A stretch of 43,010 nucleotides of DNA from Pseudobdellovibrionaceae bacterium. GTDB taxonomy: Bacteria; Bdellovibrionota; Bdellovibrionia; Bdellovibrionales; Bdellovibrionaceae. The stretch is taken from NCBI GenBank assembly GCA_021731025.1, contig JAKFYD010000030.1, positions 1 to 43,010 on the forward strand, given 5' to 3'. The stretch's first letter is position 1; each line of letters opens with the position of its first letter. Below are positions 7,042-34,488 of this stretch, piece by piece. Both the position numbers and the translations under genes were made by a program. The notes under the pieces were generated by a model. That model searched no databases. It saw only the letters and a program-made list of their open reading frames with translations, and was not told the DNA's origin.

Positions 7042-8733
7042 ATGTATTCATTCTTAAAGTCTAAACTTCAGACAGCTGTCGTTATTTTATTAACACTGTT
7101 GATGGTGAGTGAGACAGGCTTTACTCAAGTGAGTGAAACTAACCCTTTCAAGGCTGGCGCAAAAAAATCTCGCTCATCTCCTCAGGAAACCAATCCTTTT
7201 CTTAAAAAAAACAACAAAGCTCAGGTTAGAACAACTGCGGCACAACCATCTCCTATTGCAGTAGTTGCGGCGGCAGCTGCTACGACCCCGGTAGCACCAA
7301 CTGCCCCAGCTTCCGAAGGTGTACCACCATCCAACAACAGTATGCCATTTGGTATTGGTAAATCTGATGCTCAAGTTAAACAAGAAACTCGACAAGAATG
7401 CGCAATGGAATTTCGTTCCGTGACAGACCCGGATGAACGAGAAAATAAGATTAATTCGTGTGTGAGAAACCGACTTGATAGTATGGACCCAGCTCGAACA
7501 GAATCACTGTGCTCAGACCTCCGAAAACAAATGAATGAATCTATAACTAAGTGTCCCTCACAAGGTTGTCAGGACGTCGTCGACAGTTGTACAGCTGCGG
7601 GAGATAGTCCAGAATCAGAATCCGTCGTCAATGCCTTACTGATGCAAACAACAGGTTTTGGTATGACTGGCCAGAGTAATGTCGTCAACTGCAATATCAC
7701 TTACAGTGAGCATCGATCGGAACTCAAAGAACGAATGACCGACGTTGAAACGATTCAAAAAGATATTTCAAATCAAAATAAAGATAACCTCAAAGACCAA
7801 GAAGATTTCCAAAAGCAATCCCGTGATATCGAAGACAAACAGAGAGAGCTTAAAAAACAACAGCAAGATTTGATTAAAGAAGCTAAGACCAAGCAACGAG
7901 AAAGCTTTCAAAAGAAAATGGAAGAACGATTAAAACTTGATGCTCAAGTTCGACAATCGATGCTGGAAATATCACAAATGCGAAGCAAGTTGTTACAGAT
8001 GACGAACGCAAAAAAGAAAATGTTAGGTAACTTTGACGTTAATAACTTCGTTCGAGCTTGCCGTGGGGAATACACCAAATCCCGAGCTGAATATTGCGCA
8101 AAAACTCGCGACAATTGCAAACAACAAGTTTACACCAGCGTCGGTACCGCCTTTACGTCGGGAGGAATTAATAAAAGTGACCGTATTGCAAGTTTCGACA
8201 ATTGTGTGAAAAATACTCTTTTGGATTACTCGACTCAAATTGACAGCGCCTCTGAAGATTTAAAGATTATGCAAGGGCAAATTATCGCAAAAAATGAAGC
8301 CTTAGATGCAGCAAAAGAAGCCCAACAGAAAAGTGACGAGTTCTTGATGCAAGAGCTGAATGAAATGCAAAGTGACACTAATGCGCAAATGCAAGTCATT
8401 GGAGAGGCCTTTCAGACCCTGGAAAAACAAAAAATGGAGCTTCAAACTAATTTTCAAACTCAACAATTAGAAAATCTTCGTCGAAGAATGGAATTGAATA
8501 ACAGGTTGGGAATGAAGTCGAGCGCTCTTGGCCAAGTTGGTAAGCGCCCTGGGAAAATTCATAAAGACTTAACTGGAAATGAAGCTATTGGCGAAGTCAC
8601 TAAGCAGCAAGGTTTCCGACAAGATGCTGAAAGATTAGGTTGCTGTAAAACTGGCTATTCTGGTACAGAACTCTGCAAAGAATCTGCTGCCGCTAAGTCC
8701 TCCAAAAATTCTAATAAAAAATCGGGAAGATAA
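7042..8733 (+). CDS. Exported cysteine-rich coiled-coil protein, unknown function
   Basis: 563 residues from the ATG at 7042, chosen because GGGGAGGG (7030-7037) lies just before it and the product begins with a clean signal peptide (MYSFLKSKLQTAVVILLTLL, cleavage likely in the GFTQ region); the frame also opens at 7009. The order of parts is: NPF-containing linker (two copies of ETNPF(L/K)K), an Ala/Pro/Thr-rich stretch, a Cys-rich block with about eight cysteines (QECAMEF to DSCTAAG), a long Gln/Lys/Glu coiled coil, a second Cys-bearing block (FVRACRG, YCAKTRDNCKQQ, FDNCVKN), another coiled coil and a Cys-containing tail (LGCCKTGYSGTELCKES). The even spread of cysteines suggests periplasmic disulfides. 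I do not recognise the family. It resembles in style the exported Cys-rich protein at 23874-25421, and both have the GTCTCA-N3-TGAGAC palindrome upstream. Confidence 0.8.
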   Translation: MYSFLKSKLQTAVVILLTLLMVSETGFTQVSETNPFKAGAKKSRSSPQETNPFLKKNNKAQVRTTAAQPSPIAVVAAAAATTPVAPTAPASEGVPPSNNSMPFGIGKSDAQVKQETRQECAMEFRSVTDPDERENKINSCVRNRLDSMDPARTESLCSDLRKQMNESITKCPSQGCQDVVDSCTAAGDSPESESVVNALLMQTTGFGMTGQSNVVNCNITYSEHRSELKERMTDVETIQKDISNQNKDNLKDQEDFQKQSRDIEDKQRELKKQQQDLIKEAKTKQRESFQKKMEERLKLDAQVRQSMLEISQMRSKLLQMTNAKKKMLGNFDVNNFVRACRGEYTKSRAEYCAKTRDNCKQQVYTSVGTAFTSGGINKSDRIASFDNCVKNTLLDYSTQIDSASEDLKIMQGQIIAKNEALDAAKEAQQKSDEFLMQELNEMQSDTNAQMQVIGEAFQTLEKQKMELQTNFQTQQLENLRRRMELNNRLGMKSSALGQVGKRPGKIHKDLTGNEAIGEVTKQQGFRQDAERLGCCKTGYSGTELCKESAAAKSSKNSNKKSGR

Positions 8734-8758
8734 TAAATCCAGTAATCCCCTTCTTTAG

Positions 8759-8790
8759 CCCAGTTCGATAAGCACCTCGACCTGGGATTT
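8759..8790 (+). terminator. Hairpin after the coiled-coil gene, possible terminator
   Basis: CCCAGTTCGA (8759-8768) pairs with TCGACCTGGG (8777-8786) at 9 of 10 positions across an 8-base loop. Only a short ATTT follows, so termination would be inefficient. It separates the exported coiled-coil gene from the pbp1A operon. Confidence 0.45.
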
Positions 8791-8858
8791 CCTAACACGG
8801 TTGATGATGACCCTTCTGACAAGTCTTGGTACATTCAGAGACTCGTTCGGAGGTTCAT

Positions 8859-11567
8859 GTGATTCTTAAAAAAGCCATTATTGGTGGTTCGATTGCTATT
8901 GTGGTTGGTGCACTTGTTACTATTGGTGCCTTGCTCGCGATCAAATCCAGTTTACCAAAAATTTTAGAAATTAAAGATTATGAGCCACTGCTTGTGAGCC
9001 ATGTCTTTGATCGCAATGGAAAAAAGATTGGTGAATTTTTTCGTGAGCGTCGGACTCTGGTTGCTTACGACAAGATTCCTCAACATCTTATCAACGCATT
9101 TTTAGCTTCGGAAGATGACCAGTTTTTTAAACACAATGGCATTAACTACCTGGCGATCCTTCGTGCGATGATTGCTAACATTCGCGCCGGAAAAAATGTT
9201 CAAGGGGGATCGACGATCACTCAGCAGGTCGCAAAAACATTCTTCCTTTCGCCGGAAAAAACGATTGTCCGAAAAATTCGTGAAGCGATGTTGGCTATGC
9301 AACTGGAAGATAACCTCTCGAAGGAAGAAATTCTTTACCTTTATTTAAATCAAATATTTTTTGGAAATACCGCTTACGGTATAGAAAATGCGGCTCAAAC
9401 TTATTTCCATAAATCCGTTGATAAAATAACTTTGGAAGAATCAGCCATTCTTGCGGGCTTACCCCAAGCTCCTAGTCGATACTCGCCGGTACGAAATCCA
9501 CGGGCTGCGAAAGAAAGACAAATCTATGTTTTGCGCCGAATGGCTGAAGTGGGCTTTATCAGTAAAGACGATGCAGAAAAAGCGATTCAAACGCCTGTGA
9601 AAGTTCACGTGCGTGAAAACTATGAAGAGTTTGCTCCTTACTACCTCGAAACGGTTCGTCAAATTTTAGTGCAACAATTGGGTGAAGAAATTGTTTTGGA
9701 TAAGGGGATCAGTGTTTACACAGGTCTTGATATCGACAAACAAAAAGCCGCTCAAGAATCGGTTCTGGCGGGTTTAAAACAATTGGATAAACGCCAAGGA
9801 TATCGGGGCGCACTACGACGTCTTGAAACAAAAGAAGATATACAAAGATTTCTGATGGACCAACAAAGAAAAATAATTTCGAGTGCCACGGCAGAACGAA
9901 CCATTCTTCCCACAGGCGAGTTTGAAGAAATTATTTCCTTAAAAAAAGAAGACCCCAGTCAACCTATGCCCAGTTACTTGAAACTCGATGAATCTTACGA
10001 AGTTTTGGTCACTGACGTGAACGACGCCTTAGGTTTAACTTACGTTCAGTTTCCAGAATCTAAAGGCGTGATTGATTTCGAAACCATGAAATGGGCTCGT
10101 AAACCTGACACCAACAAGCGCTACGATCTTGATTTGATCAAGAAACCTTCTGATGCTTTAAAAGTTGGTGATGTTATTTTAGTGAAAATTTCCGCGCCCA
10201 GCGTTTCTATTCCTCGCCTTTCCCAAGTGAAACCACCTAAAAAAGGTGTTGCACCTACGCCAGCTCCGGTGCTTCCTGATTTTAAAGGAACACTGATGGT
10301 CGAGCTTGATCAACAGCCTGTCGTTGAAGGGGCCTTGCTCAGTTTTGATCAGCATTCCCAAGATGTTTTAGCTATGGTGGGTGGTTCTAATTTTGTTCGT
10401 AACAAAAATGAATTCAATCGCACCGTGCAAGCAGCTCGGCAAACGGGCTCTTCATTCAAAGCCATTGTTTATGCTTCAGCTTTGGACAAAAGCTACACCC
10501 CATCGACACCCATCATGGATGCTCCTATTGTTTACGAAGAAACTCAGCAAGACAATGAAGGCCAAGAGGAAACAAAAACTTGGAAGCCCACCAATCATGG
10601 AAAAACTTTTGGTGGAGAAATTATTTTTCGCAATGCTTTAGTGCAATCGTTGAATGTGCCTACGGTTAAAATCGTTGAAGACATCAGTGTTAAATGGGCG
10701 ATGGATTATGCTCGCCGTCTTGGAATATTTTCGCCACTAAATCCTGATTTCACTATGGCCTTGGGATCCAGTGGTGTGACCTTGTACGAAATGACCAAAG
10801 TCTTTTCCGAATTTGGTCGATTGGGAAAACGCATTCGTCCCGTCATCATTCACAAAGTCACTGATAGTAGCGGTAAAGTTTTAATGGAAAAAACTTCTTT
10901 GGATATTCGTTTTAAAAATGAAATCGAGGCTCTTGATCAAGAGTTCGAAGAACGAAGAAAAAAATACATTGATTCGAAAGCTTCAGCAGCTGCTGACAGT
11001 GCCGCCGCACAACAAACAACCAACGATCAGCAGAAATCGAATCAAAAAATAAACACGGATCCTTTTTTGTTTTTTGAAGATCCCGAACAGCTCATTCGAC
11101 CCCAAACCGCTTCCATCATGAATTCCCTTTTACGCGGTGTTATCGAAGACAAAAACGGCACTGGTGGTCGAGCGAAAGCCTTGGGACGAGAAGTCGCTGG
11201 TAAAACAGGCACAACCAATGGTTATGTTGACGCGTGGTTCATTGGTTACACGGCCCAAATTGCCACAGGTGTGTGGGTTGGATTCGATAAGGAAAAAAGT
11301 ATTGGCAAAGGGGAAGTCGGCGGCCGAGCTGCATTGCCTCTTTGGCTCGACTATATGAAATCAGCGCACGAAGGACTTCCTCAGATGACATTGCCTGTTT
11401 CCGAAGGTATTGTTTTTGCCAATATCGATGGGGAATCGGGCCAACTTGCCAGCGCGTCCAGTAAGAATGTTTTACGACAAGCTTTCATCGAAGGAACCGA
11501 ACCCACCAGCACTTCGAATAAAAACGAAGAAGCTACGGAATTTTTAAAACAGGAACTCAACGAATGA
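8859..11567 (+). CDS. mrcA: Penicillin-binding protein 1A (class A, GT51 plus transpeptidase)
   Basis: Bifunctional inner-membrane enzyme that polymerises lipid II into glycan strands and cross-links the peptides. Numbered from GTG 8859 (902 aa): a membrane anchor at about 5-30; glycosyltransferase domain with the catalytic Glu at E85 (LASEDDQFF) and GGSTITQQ at 117-124; a middle OB-like domain; transpeptidase with S531 in the SSFK motif, SLN in VQSLNVPTV, and KTGT from K782. The GTG start is chosen because CGGAGG lies 5 bases upstream; the frame opens at a TTG at 8826 without a ribosome site. An Ala/Gln/Asn-rich low-complexity insert (about 705-735) lies between the SxN and KTG motifs. It overlaps uvrA by 4 bases, so it heads the pbp1A-uvrA-msbA operon. 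Confidence 0.94.
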   Translation: MILKKAIIGGSIAIVVGALVTIGALLAIKSSLPKILEIKDYEPLLVSHVFDRNGKKIGEFFRERRTLVAYDKIPQHLINAFLASEDDQFFKHNGINYLAILRAMIANIRAGKNVQGGSTITQQVAKTFFLSPEKTIVRKIREAMLAMQLEDNLSKEEILYLYLNQIFFGNTAYGIENAAQTYFHKSVDKITLEESAILAGLPQAPSRYSPVRNPRAAKERQIYVLRRMAEVGFISKDDAEKAIQTPVKVHVRENYEEFAPYYLETVRQILVQQLGEEIVLDKGISVYTGLDIDKQKAAQESVLAGLKQLDKRQGYRGALRRLETKEDIQRFLMDQQRKIISSATAERTILPTGEFEEIISLKKEDPSQPMPSYLKLDESYEVLVTDVNDALGLTYVQFPESKGVIDFETMKWARKPDTNKRYDLDLIKKPSDALKVGDVILVKISAPSVSIPRLSQVKPPKKGVAPTPAPVLPDFKGTLMVELDQQPVVEGALLSFDQHSQDVLAMVGGSNFVRNKNEFNRTVQAARQTGSSFKAIVYASALDKSYTPSTPIMDAPIVYEETQQDNEGQEETKTWKPTNHGKTFGGEIIFRNALVQSLNVPTVKIVEDISVKWAMDYARRLGIFSPLNPDFTMALGSSGVTLYEMTKVFSEFGRLGKRIRPVIIHKVTDSSGKVLMEKTSLDIRFKNEIEALDQEFEERRKKYIDSKASAAADSAAAQQTTNDQQKSNQKINTDPFLFFEDPEQLIRPQTASIMNSLLRGVIEDKNGTGGRAKALGREVAGKTGTTNGYVDAWFIGYTAQIATGVWVGFDKEKSIGKGEVGGRAALPLWLDYMKSAHEGLPQMTLPVSEGIVFANIDGESGQLASASSKNVLRQAFIEGTEPTSTSNKNEEATEFLKQELNE

Positions 11568-14386
11568 AAGAAATTCACCTCTGGGGGGTGAAGCAAAATA
11601 ATCTGAAAAACATCGAGGTCAAAATTCCTGTCGGTCAAATGACAGTGATCTGTGGTCCCTCGGGTTCAGGAAAAAGCTCTTTAGCTTTTGAGACTCTTTT
11701 TGCCGAAGGTCAAAGACGTTTTATCGAGAGCATGAGCAACTATGCTCGACAGTTTTTAAATAAAGCCCCGAAGCCTTTGATCGATGGCATCAACAATATT
11801 CCACCAGCGATTTCTATTGAACAAAAAAATACCATTAAAAGCTCGCGCTCAACGGTAGGTACCGCCACTGAAGTTATTGATTACTTGCGATTGCTCTATG
11901 AAAAAATTGGTCAGCCCCACTGCCCTAGTCACGGAGTTCCTACAGAAAAAGAAAGCGTCACTGAAGCGACGGATAAAGTCCTTCGAGAATTTCAAGGACA
12001 GCGCGGTTACATTCTGGTTGAAATTAGCGAAGAAGGTCGCACCGCTGAAGGAAAAAAATTATTATCTCTCTTTTTGCAAGATGGCTATCTGCGAATTTAT
12101 CAGCCCGCTAAAAAAGAAAAACAGCCAGGCACTGTCATCGAGATTAATACTCCTGCAGCGATGAAAAAAGGTCTTCCCACGGAAAGCTTTTTTTTAGTTA
12201 TTGATCGCATGTCCTTTACTGACGATGAACGAGGACGCTTAGCTGATTCTTTGACTCAAGCTTACGAGGCTTCTGTTAAATACAACCGGCACATTCTCAC
12301 GCGACGAGCGACCATCATCACAACGGAAGGAAATGAAATCCGTGCCAGCGAAGAAAATTCTTGTCCCATTTGTGGCTACACTCCTCCGTTACTCAGCTCT
12401 AAACTTTTTAGTTTTAATTCTCCCATCGGCGCTTGCCCGACTTGCAAAGGCTTTGGAAATATACTGGAGCTTGATGAAAAGAAAGTAATCCCTAATCCTA
12501 ATCTTTCTTTGGATCAGGGAGCACTTCATCCCTTCACTATGCCTAGTGCAGCTCACGAGCGAAAACAGCTTATGCAGTTTTGCAAGAAGATGAAGATCGA
12601 CGCGGATATTTCTTGGAAAGATCTTCCGAAAAAAGTACGCGATATGATTTGGAATGGGCACGAGAAATTTTTTGGTGTGAAGGGCCTGTTCGCTTATTTA
12701 GAAGAAATAAAATACAAGATGCACGTCAGAGTTTTTATTTCTCGCTACCGCAGTCCTTCCCAATGTCCTGATTGCAAAGGTTCACGACTGCGAACTGAAG
12801 TTGATACGATTTTAGTTGCGGGAAAAAATATTAATCAAATCACTCAAATGACGATCGAAGAAATGACTCAGTTTTTTCGCCAGATTCAGCTTTCGGCTTT
12901 TCATGAAGAACTCGCTGGCGAAGTCTTTAAACAAATTCGCTCTCGCATTGAATTTTTAATGCGTGTTGGAGTCCACTATCTGTCATTGTCTCGGGAAACT
13001 CGCACTTTATCTGGTGGAGAATATCAGCGTCTGATTTTAGCGAATCAATTGGGCATGGGACTTTCGCAAACTTTGTACGTTTTGGACGAGCCCACCGTGG
13101 GCTTGCATCCCCGGGACAATGAAAGATTGATTTCGATTTTAAAAGATTTACGGAACTTAGGAAACACACTGGTCATCGTCGAACATGATCAAGATGTCAT
13201 TCGCAGCAGTGAAAATCTTATCGAGATGGGTCCCGGTTCAGGAATCCATGGTGGAGAAGTTGTTTATTCGGGGCCTTCGGTTGATTTTTATGACAATAAA
13301 GAATCCGTCACAGCACATTACCTGCGCAATAATACGGCCCAGTTAATTTCGCATGAAAATCGTCCTGTGAATATTGATAATTATAAATTCAAAATTCAGC
13401 TTTTGGGTGCAAGTGGAAATAATTTAAAAGACATTGATGTGAGCTTTCCTTTGCATCGTTTGATTTCTATAACTGGCGTCAGTGGTTCCGGCAAATCCAC
13501 TTTAGTTACGAAGACCTTGTACCCAGCCTTAGCTCGCAGTTTAGATATCGAATTTATTCCAACTCAAGGTTTTAAAAAACTTACGGGTGTTGAACATATT
13601 AAAAATGTTTTATTGATTGATCAAAGTCCCATTGGGAAATCGGCCCGCAGTTCTCCGATCACTTACATGAAAACCTTTGATGCTATTCGCGCCATTATGG
13701 CCGCCACCCCCGAATCGAAAGCTCGCGGTTATACACCGGGAACTTTCAGTTTGAATGTGGATGGTGGACGATGCCCTTCTTGCCGGGGAACAGGCTTCGA
13801 AGAAATCGATATGATGTTCATGGATAATGTCATTATTCCTTGCGATGTCTGCGATTCGAAAAAATATCGTCCTGAAATTTTGGAAGTCCTGTACCGGGGA
13901 AAAAATATTTTTGAAATTCTTTCGATGACCGTGAATGAGGCCATGGGGTTTTTCGTTGCCCATCCAAACATTCGACGCCCCTTGAGTGTGCTCAAAGAGG
14001 TCGGCTTGGATTACATTCAGCTGGGTCAACCCGCCAACAGCTTGAGTGGTGGTGAATCTCAACGATTGAAGATCGCCAGGGAGCTTTCAGAAGTTCAACA
14101 AAAAAGCACTCTCTACATCCTTGATGAACCGACAACAGGTTTACACTTTCGTGAAATAGAAATGCTGATGAAGGTCCTTCATCGTCTGATCGACAATGGC
14201 GGCAGCGTTATCGTCGTTGAACATAACCTCGATGTGATTCTAGGTTCTGACTACGTCATCGATCTAGGCCCTGAAGCTGGGAAAAAGGGGGGCCAAATCG
14301 TTGCTAGTGGTTCCCCCCAAGATATCATGAAGGTAAAGAACAGTTTGACCGGGCAGTACTTGAAAAAATATATTGAGAGTCCATGA
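11564..14386 (+). CDS. uvrA: Excinuclease ABC subunit A (UvrA)
   Basis: DNA-damage recognition ATPase of nucleotide excision repair; dimerises and loads UvrB at lesions. Both ABC modules are complete: Walker A GPSGSGKSS at 31-39 and GVSGSGKST at 638-646, signatures LSGGEYQR near 482 and LSGGESQR in the second half, Walker B with LDEPTVGLHPRDN and LDEPTTGLHF. The C-terminal zinc module has C737/C740 and C760/C763; the first zinc pair is CPICGY/CPTCKG. At 940 residues it is of normal length. Some conserved stretches differ from the commonest form (for example PPAISIEQKNTIKSS and LANQLGMGLSQT), so this may be a lineage-specific or second UvrA. It overlaps genes on both sides by 4 bases (ATGA). 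A DNA-repair gene inside an envelope operon is unusual. Confidence 0.95.
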   Translation: MKEIHLWGVKQNNLKNIEVKIPVGQMTVICGPSGSGKSSLAFETLFAEGQRRFIESMSNYARQFLNKAPKPLIDGINNIPPAISIEQKNTIKSSRSTVGTATEVIDYLRLLYEKIGQPHCPSHGVPTEKESVTEATDKVLREFQGQRGYILVEISEEGRTAEGKKLLSLFLQDGYLRIYQPAKKEKQPGTVIEINTPAAMKKGLPTESFFLVIDRMSFTDDERGRLADSLTQAYEASVKYNRHILTRRATIITTEGNEIRASEENSCPICGYTPPLLSSKLFSFNSPIGACPTCKGFGNILELDEKKVIPNPNLSLDQGALHPFTMPSAAHERKQLMQFCKKMKIDADISWKDLPKKVRDMIWNGHEKFFGVKGLFAYLEEIKYKMHVRVFISRYRSPSQCPDCKGSRLRTEVDTILVAGKNINQITQMTIEEMTQFFRQIQLSAFHEELAGEVFKQIRSRIEFLMRVGVHYLSLSRETRTLSGGEYQRLILANQLGMGLSQTLYVLDEPTVGLHPRDNERLISILKDLRNLGNTLVIVEHDQDVIRSSENLIEMGPGSGIHGGEVVYSGPSVDFYDNKESVTAHYLRNNTAQLISHENRPVNIDNYKFKIQLLGASGNNLKDIDVSFPLHRLISITGVSGSGKSTLVTKTLYPALARSLDIEFIPTQGFKKLTGVEHIKNVLLIDQSPIGKSARSSPITYMKTFDAIRAIMAATPESKARGYTPGTFSLNVDGGRCPSCRGTGFEEIDMMFMDNVIIPCDVCDSKKYRPEILEVLYRGKNIFEILSMTVNEAMGFFVAHPNIRRPLSVLKEVGLDYIQLGQPANSLSGGESQRLKIARELSEVQQKSTLYILDEPTTGLHFREIEMLMKVLHRLIDNGGSVIVVEHNLDVILGSDYVIDLGPEAGKKGGQIVASGSPQDIMKVKNSLTGQYLKKYIESP

Positions 14387-30334: not shown

Positions 30335-30616
30335 ATGAAAAAACTCAATATTGAATTAGGTCATCTTGTAAAAGAATACCGCAATAAGAAAGCGATGACT
30401 CAATTAGAACTCTCCGAAAAACTCGGTTACGACACTCCCCAATTCGTTTCTATCATTGAGCGTGGATTAGCCAAAGTGCCCTTGAATGTACTTGGCCAGC
30501 TAATTGTATTATTGGGCATCCCTGAACGAAAAGTGACTAAACTTTTAACAACGGCTTATCAGCTGGAAGTCCAAAAAGAAATTGCTACTGGTAAAACAAA
30601 GGTTGTTAATAGTTAA
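30335..30616 (+). CDS. XRE-family helix-turn-helix regulator
   Basis: 93-residue DNA-binding protein with a Cro/C1-type helix-turn-helix over about 8-62 (VKEYRNKKAMTQLELSEKLGYDT and QFVSIIERGLAKVP). The C-terminus is a short helix. It may act as a transcriptional repressor of its operon or of the divergent cassette. GAGGAAGG precedes the ATG. The next gene, 30635-31375, starts 18 bases downstream and is likely co-transcribed. Confidence 0.9.
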   Translation: MKKLNIELGHLVKEYRNKKAMTQLELSEKLGYDTPQFVSIIERGLAKVPLNVLGQLIVLLGIPERKVTKLLTTAYQLEVQKEIATGKTKVVNS

Positions 30617-30634
30617 TTGAACAAAGGCGAATTC

Positions 30635-31375
30635 ATGCTTCAAAAGAAAATGCCATATAGCTCAAACAAAAAGGAGTTTTGTTTATTAGCTGAGCAAATT
30701 TCTAATATTGCGGGTAAGCATGGAATTAAAATAGCGCCTTACAATTCAGAAGCTCTTCCCCATTTTTCTAAATTAGATGAAAATGCACAAGTTGAAATTC
30801 TAAATCAATTACGAATGTACGTTCATATTTGCCAGAAGACTCTCGAGATTTATGGCAGTCTTCATTTTTCAACCCAAATGATATGGGTTGCTTTAAAAGA
30901 ACTTCAACTAATTCCCTGTTCTGATTTGTTCACAAAAATAACTTCCGAGGACGTCATTGAAATTCATGACCTAGGGAATAAACAGATTTTTAGAAATTTA
31001 AGATACTTTGAGTTTTGCAGCTATACCCTCGAAGAAGTGCATTGCGTTCCCTGGACCGAGCTTTATTATCGCCCGGTGGAAGACCTCAGTGTGCTTCTTA
31101 GTTTTGCTGAGAATATTATTAAGAACCCGCCGCGCAGTACAATTGCCTGTGATTTTGGTCCCCAATTAATACAGGAACTCAATTCGAGTGCACGCTTAAG
31201 CATGAGTAATACTATAAAGTATTACTCACCTCTTTTTGACAACACAGGGAGCATGGTCGCGGCAATGGCTATTGAATCCCCTAAGCTTATTAAGAGCACA
31301 GAGAAAAATATTTCCCACTTTCCACCAATGGAAATGCCCGCCGCAAATATCTTAAACTTTGAGTTTAAAAATTAA
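30635..31375 (+). CDS. Orphan protein partnered with XRE regulator, unknown function
   Basis: 246 residues from the ATG at 30635; the frame opens at a TTG at 30617 that lacks a ribosome site, whereas AAAGGCG precedes 30635. Soluble, no signal peptide. A helical region (FSKLDENAQVEILNQLRMYVHICQKTLEIYG) is followed by a motif-like run LPHFSK...TLEEVHCVPWTELYYRPV and a C-terminal Ser/Thr-rich strand region. No known family recognised; a sensor or regulatory partner for the XRE protein is possible. It is convergent with the diiron protein gene and overlaps it by 4 bases. Sequence here is more A/T-rich than the window average. Confidence 0.75.
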   Translation: MLQKKMPYSSNKKEFCLLAEQISNIAGKHGIKIAPYNSEALPHFSKLDENAQVEILNQLRMYVHICQKTLEIYGSLHFSTQMIWVALKELQLIPCSDLFTKITSEDVIEIHDLGNKQIFRNLRYFEFCSYTLEEVHCVPWTELYYRPVEDLSVLLSFAENIIKNPPRSTIACDFGPQLIQELNSSARLSMSNTIKYYSPLFDNTGSMVAAMAIESPKLIKSTEKNISHFPPMEMPAANILNFEFKN

Positions 31376-31995
31376 GCTGCTTTCTTAGAAAGATTTTTTC
31401 GAGCGTAATCTGCAGCTTCTTTCAAAACTAAATCGTAAGCGACAAAGGTTTGATGACAGTTTTGTTTTATTCTTTCCATCTGTTCACCAGGAAATTTATT
31501 AATTAGTTCCTCGGCATGATCTGAATGTTCCACATCTTCTTTAACGTGAACTTTCAAAAAATTACTTTCTAAACCCGCCTTTTTGATACGCTGATAGATA
31601 GTTACTCCAACGTCTACCGCTAACCATTCGAGCATTAAACCGAATCCATAAAAACTAATTGGATCATAAGATGCTTTAAAATACTGTGGCTCATAAAGCA
31701 GACGAGTCGATGGTAATTCCGGGAAATGGGCTAAATCAAAACCTAATTTTTCGACATCCTTTTCTGCAATTCGATGATGTCCCCATTCCTCACGAAGATG
31801 CTCTATAAAAAATTTATGAGCGTCTTCGTGTTCAAATTTACACTGAGCCGAACACAGGGCCATAATCCGAGTTATATGTTTAGTAAAATAGTATGTCTGA
31901 GCTGACCATGAAGCTAAAAAATTTTTGTCATCCCAAGGACAGTTCAAAAATGTCTCACGGTATTGTGTGTTGAGTTCTTTAAATAACTTTTTCAT
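31372..31995 (-). CDS. Haem-oxygenase-like diiron oxidase (HDO) family protein
   Basis: 207 residues from the ATG at 31995, chosen because the preceding codons of the longer frame to 32034 lie in the upstream gene and AGGGCGG stands just before this ATG. The fold is the all-helical haem-oxygenase-like (TenA/PqqC/CADD) type. Candidate metal ligands are spaced as in HDO enzymes: E69/E70 and H73/H74 in IEHLREEWGHH, E123 in LMLEWLA, and H150, E153, H157, D159 and H160 in KVHVKEDVEHSDH. Known HDO proteins use a two-iron site for oxidative chemistry, often in natural-product or cofactor pathways. Its TAA/ATG junction with the GNAT-like gene (TAATG) makes coupled translation likely. The substrate is unknown. 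Confidence 0.8.
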   Translation of the reverse strand: MKKLFKELNTQYRETFLNCPWDDKNFLASWSAQTYYFTKHITRIMALCSAQCKFEHEDAHKFFIEHLREEWGHHRIAEKDVEKLGFDLAHFPELPSTRLLYEPQYFKASYDPISFYGFGLMLEWLAVDVGVTIYQRIKKAGLESNFLKVHVKEDVEHSDHAEELINKFPGEQMERIKQNCHQTFVAYDLVLKEAADYARKNLSKKAA

Positions 31996-32654
31996 TAAGC
32001 CGCCCTTCTGTAATCGCGTGCATTTGCATTCCATATTGTTTCTATTTGATCGTGGTACTTAGGAAATCTGAAATCTTTCATCTCTTCTCTTTTCCAATAT
32101 AACAAATCGACGATGAGCCCTTTTTCTTCAACATTCTCCTTCAGGAGATGGGCAGCGTTGACCACACTTATGTCACTCATGGATTTTTTGACGGTTGTCC
32201 CAATCATAAAGGGATTACCCATATCGACGAATTGCTTCAGCGATAAACCGTGTAGAATGGCTTTATAATCAGTTCCACTTGTCTTCTTTCTAAAATCTGG
32301 TGCAATCGTAAAATTAGTACAGATCAAAGCTTTGTCAGAAGACGGCCAGCGCGAAATTTCTTCTAGAAGATTTTTTGGCCACATCCTAAAAAAACTATCG
32401 TCATAAAAAAGCGGGGCACGTAAATTTTTTTCGTCAAAGAAGGCAGCCCCAATCGGAGTATTACCTTGATAGAAACCTAACACGAGATCTTGCCTAACCC
32501 ACTGGTCGGAACAAACACTTTTAGGATCCCAACCAAAATATTTGTAAGAATCTCTCCACACATTAACCCACATTTCATATGTAGCGTTGTAAAGCTTTTC
32601 AGAAATATTCATTGGCTTTTTAGGTGAAAAAGATAAGCAGTACAAATCATTCAT
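31995..32654 (-). CDS. GNAT-like acyltransferase candidate
   Basis: 219 residues from the ATG at 32654, chosen because GTGGAGG lies 5 bases upstream; the frame extends to 32798 with no good start. The arrangement resembles an acyl-CoA N-acyltransferase fold: helix MNISEKLYNATYEMWVNVW, strand VLGFYQGNTPIGAAFF, motif-A-like NFTIAPDFRKKTSG, then helix and C-terminal strand LIVDLLYWKREE. Sequence identity to any named family was not recognised, so the fold call is inference. An acyl-homoserine-lactone synthase is a weaker alternative because its conserved residues are absent. It overlaps the next gene in TAATG and is the first gene of the pair. Confidence 0.6.
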   Translation of the reverse strand: MNDLYCLSFSPKKPMNISEKLYNATYEMWVNVWRDSYKYFGWDPKSVCSDQWVRQDLVLGFYQGNTPIGAAFFDEKNLRAPLFYDDSFFRMWPKNLLEEISRWPSSDKALICTNFTIAPDFRKKTSGTDYKAILHGLSLKQFVDMGNPFMIGTTVKKSMSDISVVNAAHLLKENVEEKGLIVDLLYWKREEMKDFRFPKYHDQIETIWNANARDYRRAA

Positions 32655-33096: not shown

Positions 33097-34488
33097 ATGT
33101 CAGTGCGAAATTTTGATTTAAATCAAAAAGAAAAGTCTTCAGAGATCAATTCTGATCCTCAACAATTGAATTTCAGCGACTTGCAATTTCATTTGCCTCA
33201 TGTCGATTTTACTGAAATTCCTGAATTATCAGAGAGCGGATGGACTTCCCTGCGTGCTCTTTCTTACCAAAGAGTTACAAAAAGATATTTTAGTTTATCA
33301 ATTATTGTTCATGCTCTTTTGGCATCGGCTGTGCTCTTTCTAAATATCCCAATCTCTGAAGAGCCTAAAAAAGAAACTATTACTATCGAAATTCAGGAGC
33401 TTTCAGGAAATGAAGCGCCTGTTGTAAACCCCCTACCTATTAAAGCAGCAAAAGCACCCGTAGCTGCACTTCCCGAAAAGGCTGAAGCTCAGGCAACCCC
33501 CGTAGCATCTGCCACGCCTGCGACTCCTGCGCCCGCGCCTGAAGATTCATCCGAAGTGATTGATGAACCTGTTATCAAACTTAAACCTATCGCAGCGGCA
33601 CCTATCCCTAAGCCTGTTAAGACTGAAGTAAAGCCGAAAGCACAAGCTGTTAAATCTGTGCCAGCTGCCCAGAAACCCGCAGCTCCAGCAAAAACTTCAA
33701 GCGCAGCAAAGCCTCAACTTCTTTCCGAAGAATCTGAAGTCGCGGTTCCGGAAAGTTTAGATGATATTCAATCTCCCGATCTTGACGAAACATCAGTGAA
33801 AGACAATCACCCTCAACAAGCTGAAGCAAAAATCAGCAAGGATGTTGAGAAAGATCTTAAACATTCGGATGAGCAAGATGAAGACTTAGTTGCCAAAGAG
33901 TCAGAACAACTTAAGGCCATTGCAAAAAATCTCGAAGATGAATCTCAAGAAAATTTGAAAGCGATCGAAGCTCAAGATAAAGCCGAGCAAGAAGCGGTTC
34001 AAAAAGCCAGTGCTCGTCGACGTCAGCAAGAAGCCCAAGCCATTGCCGCAGCCAATGCAAAAGCTGAAGCTGAAAGAGCCTCCGCCGCAAAAGCAGCTGC
34101 CGCCGCGGCCGCCGCCAATCAAGGTGGCAACGGTCAAGGTGATGGCGAGGCCGAACAAACCGGAGCTGCTCCTGGAGTTGGCGATGTGCGCTCGCTTCAA
34201 GATATGAGACAAATGCCCGGCAATCCGAAACCTTCTTATGACTACAATGAACGTCTTCGCGGTGATGCTGGTGAAGTGGTTTTCTTGGCTTACGTCACTC
34301 GTGATGGATCAACGAGCCAGTTCAAAATGATGAAAAGTACAGGTCATAGAAATTTAGATTTAAAAACTTTAAAAGCTTTGAAAAAGTGGAAATTCTATCC
34401 AGGACAAGAGGGATGGGTTGAATTCCCATTCCGTTGGGATTTGAACGGCGGCCCTGCTGAAATGCCGACCATGTTGCGACGACGCTAG
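33097..34488 (+). CDS. TonB/TolA-like energy-transducing protein
   Basis: 463 residues: a cytoplasmic tail of about 65 residues, one membrane helix (YFSLSIIVHALLASAVLFLNIPI, about 67-89), a Pro/Ala/Glu/Lys-rich periplasmic span with Ala-rich coiled-coil (KAEAERASAAKAAAAAAAANQGG), and a C-terminal TonB-type domain (GEVVFLAYVTRDGSTSQF to the WVEFPFRWDLNGG end). It would couple inner-membrane energy to outer-membrane proteins or to cell-envelope constriction. The long N-terminal tail and mixed linker are between TonB and TolA in type. ExbB/ExbD genes are not visible nearby. RBS GAGG precedes the ATG. Confidence 0.88.
   Translation: MSVRNFDLNQKEKSSEINSDPQQLNFSDLQFHLPHVDFTEIPELSESGWTSLRALSYQRVTKRYFSLSIIVHALLASAVLFLNIPISEEPKKETITIEIQELSGNEAPVVNPLPIKAAKAPVAALPEKAEAQATPVASATPATPAPAPEDSSEVIDEPVIKLKPIAAAPIPKPVKTEVKPKAQAVKSVPAAQKPAAPAKTSSAAKPQLLSEESEVAVPESLDDIQSPDLDETSVKDNHPQQAEAKISKDVEKDLKHSDEQDEDLVAKESEQLKAIAKNLEDESQENLKAIEAQDKAEQEAVQKASARRRQQEAQAIAAANAKAEAERASAAKAAAAAAAANQGGNGQGDGEAEQTGAAPGVGDVRSLQDMRQMPGNPKPSYDYNERLRGDAGEVVFLAYVTRDGSTSQFKMMKSTGHRNLDLKTLKALKKWKFYPGQEGWVEFPFRWDLNGGPAEMPTMLRRR

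Follow-up and report, generated by a model that had tools for sequence, protein, structure and literature searches.

What is the role of four small genes that lie tail to tail, two on each strand, in the genome of a Pseudobdellovibrionaceae bacterium, and do they form a single system? The window, that is, the whole stretch of DNA analyzed (43,010 nucleotides, contig JAKFYD010000030.1 of assembly GCA_021731025.1), carries on its plus strand a gene for an XRE-type helix-turn-helix protein of 93 aa (positions 30335..30616), the proposed DNA-binding output partner, followed by a gene for a 246-aa protein, SEN (30635..31375), consisting of a helical N-terminal half and a predicted C-terminal PAS domain and considered here as the proposed signal receptor. 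The mechanical ORF call for SEN begins at a TTG codon at 30617; the start was taken at 30635. On the minus strand, a gene for a 219-aa remote GNAT-superfamily protein, SYN (31995..32654), assigned by profile match and proposed to be an acyltransferase and signal synthase, precedes the gene for a predicted haem-oxygenase-like diiron oxidase of 207 aa, HDO (31372..31995). SYN and HDO are joined by a TAATG overlap, and the stop codons of the convergent SEN and HDO genes overlap as TTAA. A preliminary description of this DNA had placed four ORFs at these coordinates and recognized the TAATG coupling, and both are present in the sequence. It had overlooked that the tail-to-tail SEN/XRE pair belongs to the same system as SYN/HDO.

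The A/T-rich composition reported earlier was also borne out: the GC content of the four-gene locus is 37.5% versus 42.4% in the rest of the window, and about 2% of equally long stretches within the window have a lower value. The nearest relatives of SYN and HDO fall outside the window's own genus, a placement that would fit either transfer or an old duplication followed by loss. Upstream of SYN and divergent from it, a gene at 33097-34488 encodes a protein of 463 aa that is rich in proline and alanine and resembles TonB in a C-terminal segment. Inverted repeats were sought upstream of SYN and XRE, and nothing convincing was found.

HDO matches PF14518 in Pfam (E = 1.3e-13), and its family profile matches 3dde at 1.9e-22 and MboA at 1.2e-6, the latter being its best match of known function. 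Six residues, numbered as in the window's HDO, are identical in 61 of 61 relatives: E70, H73, E123, H150, D154, and H157. In the same set E69 is conserved at 93% and E153 at 75%, while H74 and D159 are not conserved. The ligands of MboA are E86, H89, E143, H172, D176, and H181 (PMC13108848, PMC13185094), and HDO has the full set of three histidines and three carboxylates as in MboA (PMC13185094). Judged from its sequence, HDO is thus a predicted member of the haem-oxygenase-like diiron superfamily, and the earlier assignment is upheld by the PF14518 match and the invariant ligand set. The candidate ligands named at that time need correction: E70, H73, E123, H150, and H157 stand, H74 and D159 do not, E69 and E153 are incompletely conserved, and D154 had been omitted. 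The PF14518-type domain and the full 3H/3C set of ligands are common to HDO, MboA (a mangotoxin acetylenase), UndA (a fatty-acid decarboxylase), and BesC, whereas the partners of these enzymes differ from those found here, where the substrate of HDO is probably an acyl chain or an acyl conjugate.

No significant matches to SYN were found in Pfam, NCBIfam, or PDB sequence searches. Compared with the ordinary GNATs (Acetyltransf_1) of the same genome, the SYN profile gave E = 4.4e-4, versus 0.1 for the reversed SYN profile and no better than 0.09 for any of the reversed and unrelated profiles against the GNAT set. LuxI proteins scored 5.3e-4 against this set; by this measure SYN appears to be about as distant from ordinary GNATs as LuxI is. 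The AlphaFold model built from a two-sequence alignment is weak (pLDDT 44, pTM 0.48). All 50 of its 50 top structural matches were GNATs, with Z up to 8.2, and the same weak model (pLDDT 44) aligned with the AHL synthases BjaI, LasI, and RpaI over 147-157 residues (BjaI, Z 7.4 over 149); Z values near 8 may reflect just a common arrangement. Direct kinship of SYN and LuxI was considered and rejected, the profile-profile E value of 0.2-0.26 being not significant. The alignment is collinear over 144 columns, likewise without significance, with conserved W and D residues at similar places; of the LuxI residues checked in it (R25, F29, W35, D46, D49, R70, E101, R104), E101 and R104 are not conserved. 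PF00765 (LuxI) had no match in 36 members of the SYN family, and canonical LuxI was found above the cut-off in 0 of 60 genomes of the class. SYN is therefore classified, by profile, as a putative remote GNAT and not as LuxI. The preliminary description's "GNAT-like protein" holds at the level of the profile (4.4e-4), while the fold itself comes from a low-confidence model (pLDDT 44) with GNATs alone among its top 50 matches.

For SEN, too, Pfam, NCBIfam, and PDB sequence searches returned no significant match. In profile-profile comparison its C-terminal half aligned with PAS domains at E = 9.1e-8 over 98 of 105 PAS columns, with 0.34 for the reversed decoy and 0.0037 for the best unrelated profile, so SEN is predicted to be a PAS-domain protein. 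A structure model based on two sequences was unusable (pLDDT 38). No Autoind_bind or GerE domains were matched in SEN or its relatives. XRE matches Pfam HTH_3/HTH_31. Thus, of the earlier picture of an XRE regulator and an unrecognized protein facing the enzyme pair, the regulator and the tail-to-tail layout remain, and the second protein can now be assigned to PAS proteins. An XRE gene lies within 350 bp on the same strand for 37 of the 92 SEN genes, and SEN-XRE fusions were not seen among the SEN loci. Genomes of genus g7 contain up to 8 SEN genes versus 1-3 SYN genes, a surplus of SEN paralogues that resembles LuxR solos. Some SEN-XRE pairs without SYN are convergent with a gene for a protein of 925-929 aa (L097, 823-4669; L102, 766-4574), which in L097 is an Omp85/POTRA protein, possibly representing a solo receptor beside an outer-membrane gene. 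In the closest cassette (L003, 8639-9345), the reading frame of the SEN relative is broken in two at a T-run, owing to a frameshift or an assembly error.

A conserved four-gene neighborhood had been proposed as a check, and the search of Bdellovibrionota genomes found it. Whereas a single-sequence search detected SYN in 51 of 100 relatives, the profile detected it in 95 of 144 genomes of the class and 107 of 291 genomes of the phylum. SEN occurred in 99 of the 144 class genomes. Counted by hand from the lists, 91 genomes of the class have both SYN and SEN, 4 have SYN alone, and 8 have SEN alone. The locus counts rest on 107 SYN loci in Bdellovibrionota with duplicates removed, and ORFs were tagged by profiles built for this analysis with cut-offs of 1e-4 or stricter. 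HDO was found near SYN at 87 of the 107 loci and SEN at 75. Among the first 69 loci, 56 of 58 HDO genes share the strand of SYN, and 46 of 54 SEN genes are on the other strand. The order seen in the window (SYN followed by HDO, facing SEN and XRE) is repeated in many loci from dozens of divergent genomes, so this arrangement is not due to chance. Two genomes carry tandem cassettes about 3-5 kb apart (L051, 5041-11012; L064, 5705-13228). The distance matrices of SYN, HDO, and SEN are significantly correlated (r 0.42-0.45), to an extent indistinguishable from shared ancestry. Relatives were found neither in viral contigs (queried with HDO and SEN) nor in plasmids (queried with SYN) or phages (queried with SEN only), and a pattern scan reaching beyond Bdellovibrionota matched one locus, from Bdellovibrionales.

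Beside HDO or instead of it, the loci encode fatty-acid desaturases (18 of 107 SYN loci), acyl-CoA dehydrogenases, FAD_binding_4 oxidases, and an FAD-dependent oxidoreductase. SYN and HDO form a single chain in two genomes (L074 and L075), and SYN is fused to an FAD oxidase in one (L073). Therefore, SYN probably works with an oxidizing enzyme. The list of exchanged enzymes points to the acyl chain as the oxidized part; MboA is a desaturating enzyme, and the alternative enzymes at SYN loci would desaturate as well. A two-enzyme step that oxidizes and acylates a metabolite had been called conceivable before, and the SYN-HDO fusions and the exchange of HDO for desaturases, dehydrogenases, and FAD oxidases strengthen this idea.

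The enzymes have another property in common. Relatives of SYN and HDO often end in K, R, or H, followed by 0-2 residues, a small residue, and A (A/V), as do the proteins of the window (RRAA in SYN and KKAA in HDO). In the first set of loci, on which the pattern was chosen, such tails were found in 42 of 70 SYN, 33 of 61 HDO, and 10 of 15 desaturases, versus 17 of 668 other genes, 0 of 69 SEN, and 1 of 50 XRE. The second set, serving as a separate check, yielded 22 of 38 SYN and 17 of 32 HDO, with a weaker signal for desaturases (2 of 7), versus 5 of 189 other genes, 0 of 24 SEN, and 0 of 19 XRE. Similar ends occur in FAD oxidases adjacent to SYN (VKVAA, SKFAA), acyl-CoA dehydrogenases, and a methyltransferase (KKLAA), and the tmRNA tag of the genome ends in LAA. 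The tail marks the enzymes of the pathway across unrelated folds, and such a common terminal tag suggests joint proteolysis or a shared docking partner.

The candidate receptor is exchanged as well. A histidine kinase is encoded near 27 of the 107 SYN loci, and just 5 of these also have SEN (Fisher 7e-11; since the loci are related by descent, Fisher values overstate independence and p values are a guide only). According to a simple Kyte-Doolittle scan of the first 260 residues, 18 kinases have 5-7 hydrophobic segments, and all of them belong to SYN loci without SEN, whereas the 5 kinases at loci with SEN have 0-2 segments. Scans of the N-termini with 5-7 segments recognized no sensor domain. 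The window's own genome carries both receptor types, the SEN/XRE cassette described here and a kinase cassette on contig C27 (L033, G000:C27:28000-46000, 7425-13060). This second SYN+HDO cassette has an upstream histidine kinase of 471 aa with six hydrophobic segments and, directly downstream, an 873-aa PAS/HK/receiver/Hpt protein. The exchange of sensors between loci points to signaling rather than to a generic metabolite pathway.

A single synthase that is combined with various acyl-modifying enzymes and with either of two kinds of receptor represents the build of known autoinducer systems, and for this reason we regard it as fairly likely that the locus encodes the production of an acyl-derived signal by SYN and HDO and its sensing by SEN/XRE. 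SYN, as a remote GNAT-fold acyltransferase, would join an acyl group to some acceptor, and oxidation of either the acceptor or the acyl chain by HDO, through desaturation, hydroxylation, or another reaction, would give a small, possibly diffusible signal. The PAS domain of SEN would bind this signal, and SEN together with XRE would alter transcription, be it of the synthase genes that converge on them, of other targets, or of both; where a locus has a multi-spanning sensor histidine kinase instead, that kinase may serve the same synthase. The computation shows the order and conservation of the genes, the ligand set of HDO, the PAS domain of SEN, the remote kinship of SYN with GNATs, the exchange of enzymes and receptors, and the fusions; from these we infer an acyl substrate, an order of reactions, binding of the signal by SEN, the SEN-XRE partnership, a transcriptional output, and a role between cells. 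The output route is uncertain where XRE is missing, XRE being directly beside SEN in only 37 of 92 cases. Extended to the phylum, the proposal is an undescribed form of cell-cell signaling in Bdellovibrionota, in which a new family of GNAT-type synthases nearly always accompanied by an acyl-oxidizing enzyme (HDO, desaturase, dehydrogenase, or FAD oxidase) would make a product for which the reader is either a 7-transmembrane kinase or a receptor split into PAS and XRE proteins, while the tail shared by the enzymes would tie together how they are turned over or assembled, for instance by serving as a ClpXP degron. We put this wider version forward tentatively, as having slightly less than an even chance.

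PAS and histidine kinase neighbors would also make sense if they regulated a metabolite pathway, be its product intracellular or secreted. The locus could then be a small pathway whose acylated, oxidized product is an antibiotic, a surfactant, a membrane lipid, or a siderophore-like compound. SEN/XRE or the kinase would act as a local regulator that responds to precursor, product, or envelope state, and there would be no role between cells. HDOs of known function are mostly found in natural-product pathways (PMC13108848), the closest of them, MboA, makes mangotoxin, and tailoring enzymes that can replace one another are a usual feature of these pathways. However, just one or two enzymes recur here, recurring carrier proteins, synthetases, and exporters are absent from the neighborhoods, and, apart from the oxidase, SYN is accompanied most regularly by a sensor, whose paralogues also occur without SYN. 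We therefore consider this explanation rather unlikely, although it retains appreciable weight.

Many GNATs modify proteins, and sensing of O2 or redox state is common among PAS domains and diiron proteins. Such parts could make up an intracellular module for sensing stress or oxygen, in which SYN would modify a protein or a lipid, HDO would respond to O2 or iron, and PAS/XRE would report the redox state. Nevertheless, this seems improbable, since the enzymes that take the place of HDO (desaturases, acyl-CoA dehydrogenases, or FAD oxidases) point to acyl-chain chemistry and not to metal-based sensing, and SEN is exchanged for kinases with 5-7 hydrophobic N-terminal segments and no recognized sensor domain. 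XRE weakly matches the HipB-like model TIGR03070, below its cut-off, as might be expected if it were the antitoxin of a toxin-antitoxin or defense cassette. This is very improbable, because XRE is often absent and the constant link to oxidases and sensors is unlike toxin-antitoxin modules. Anti-phage defense was rejected: PADLOC had no match for SEN, HDO, or SYN, and for XRE it reported nothing beyond generic HTH matches.

If the signaling proposal is correct, the module would work like LuxI/LuxR or LuxM/LuxN, but it belongs to neither. As in LuxI/LuxR, where a GNAT-fold synthase adjoins a cytoplasmic sensor, often convergently, SYN adjoins SEN. Ligand domains of LuxR type are PAS-like, and receptors without a synthase and nearby acyl-modifying enzymes are known there as in the module described here. 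In contrast to LuxI, SYN has neither PF00765 nor any LuxI profile match, its candidate receptor consists of two proteins, PAS and XRE, instead of a single Autoind_bind-GerE chain, and oxidases of the diiron or flavin type almost always accompany it. The pairing of SYN with histidine kinases of 5-7 segments at 18 loci recalls the combination of synthase and membrane kinase in LuxM/LuxN and CqsA/CqsS, whose synthase families are not known to be related to SYN. In DSF signaling, a fatty-acyl signal is read by a membrane kinase (RpfC) or a PAS protein (RpfR, the PAS domain of which binds DSF). An acyl signal with a kinase or PAS reader resembles the present proposal, although RpfF is a crotonase and not a GNAT, and DSF systems are not known to include HDO.

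A module of this kind was not described in the literature searched, and no signaling system of Bdellovibrio's own was found there. SYN is linked to SEN or kinase genes, while the roles of synthase and receptor are those we infer. If true, the proposal would add a synthase family without a Pfam model and two interchangeable types of receptor, and it would offer both named genes and a class of metabolites as targets. Moreover, it would show a way in which these bacteria, predators in many cases, may sense each other or their own density.
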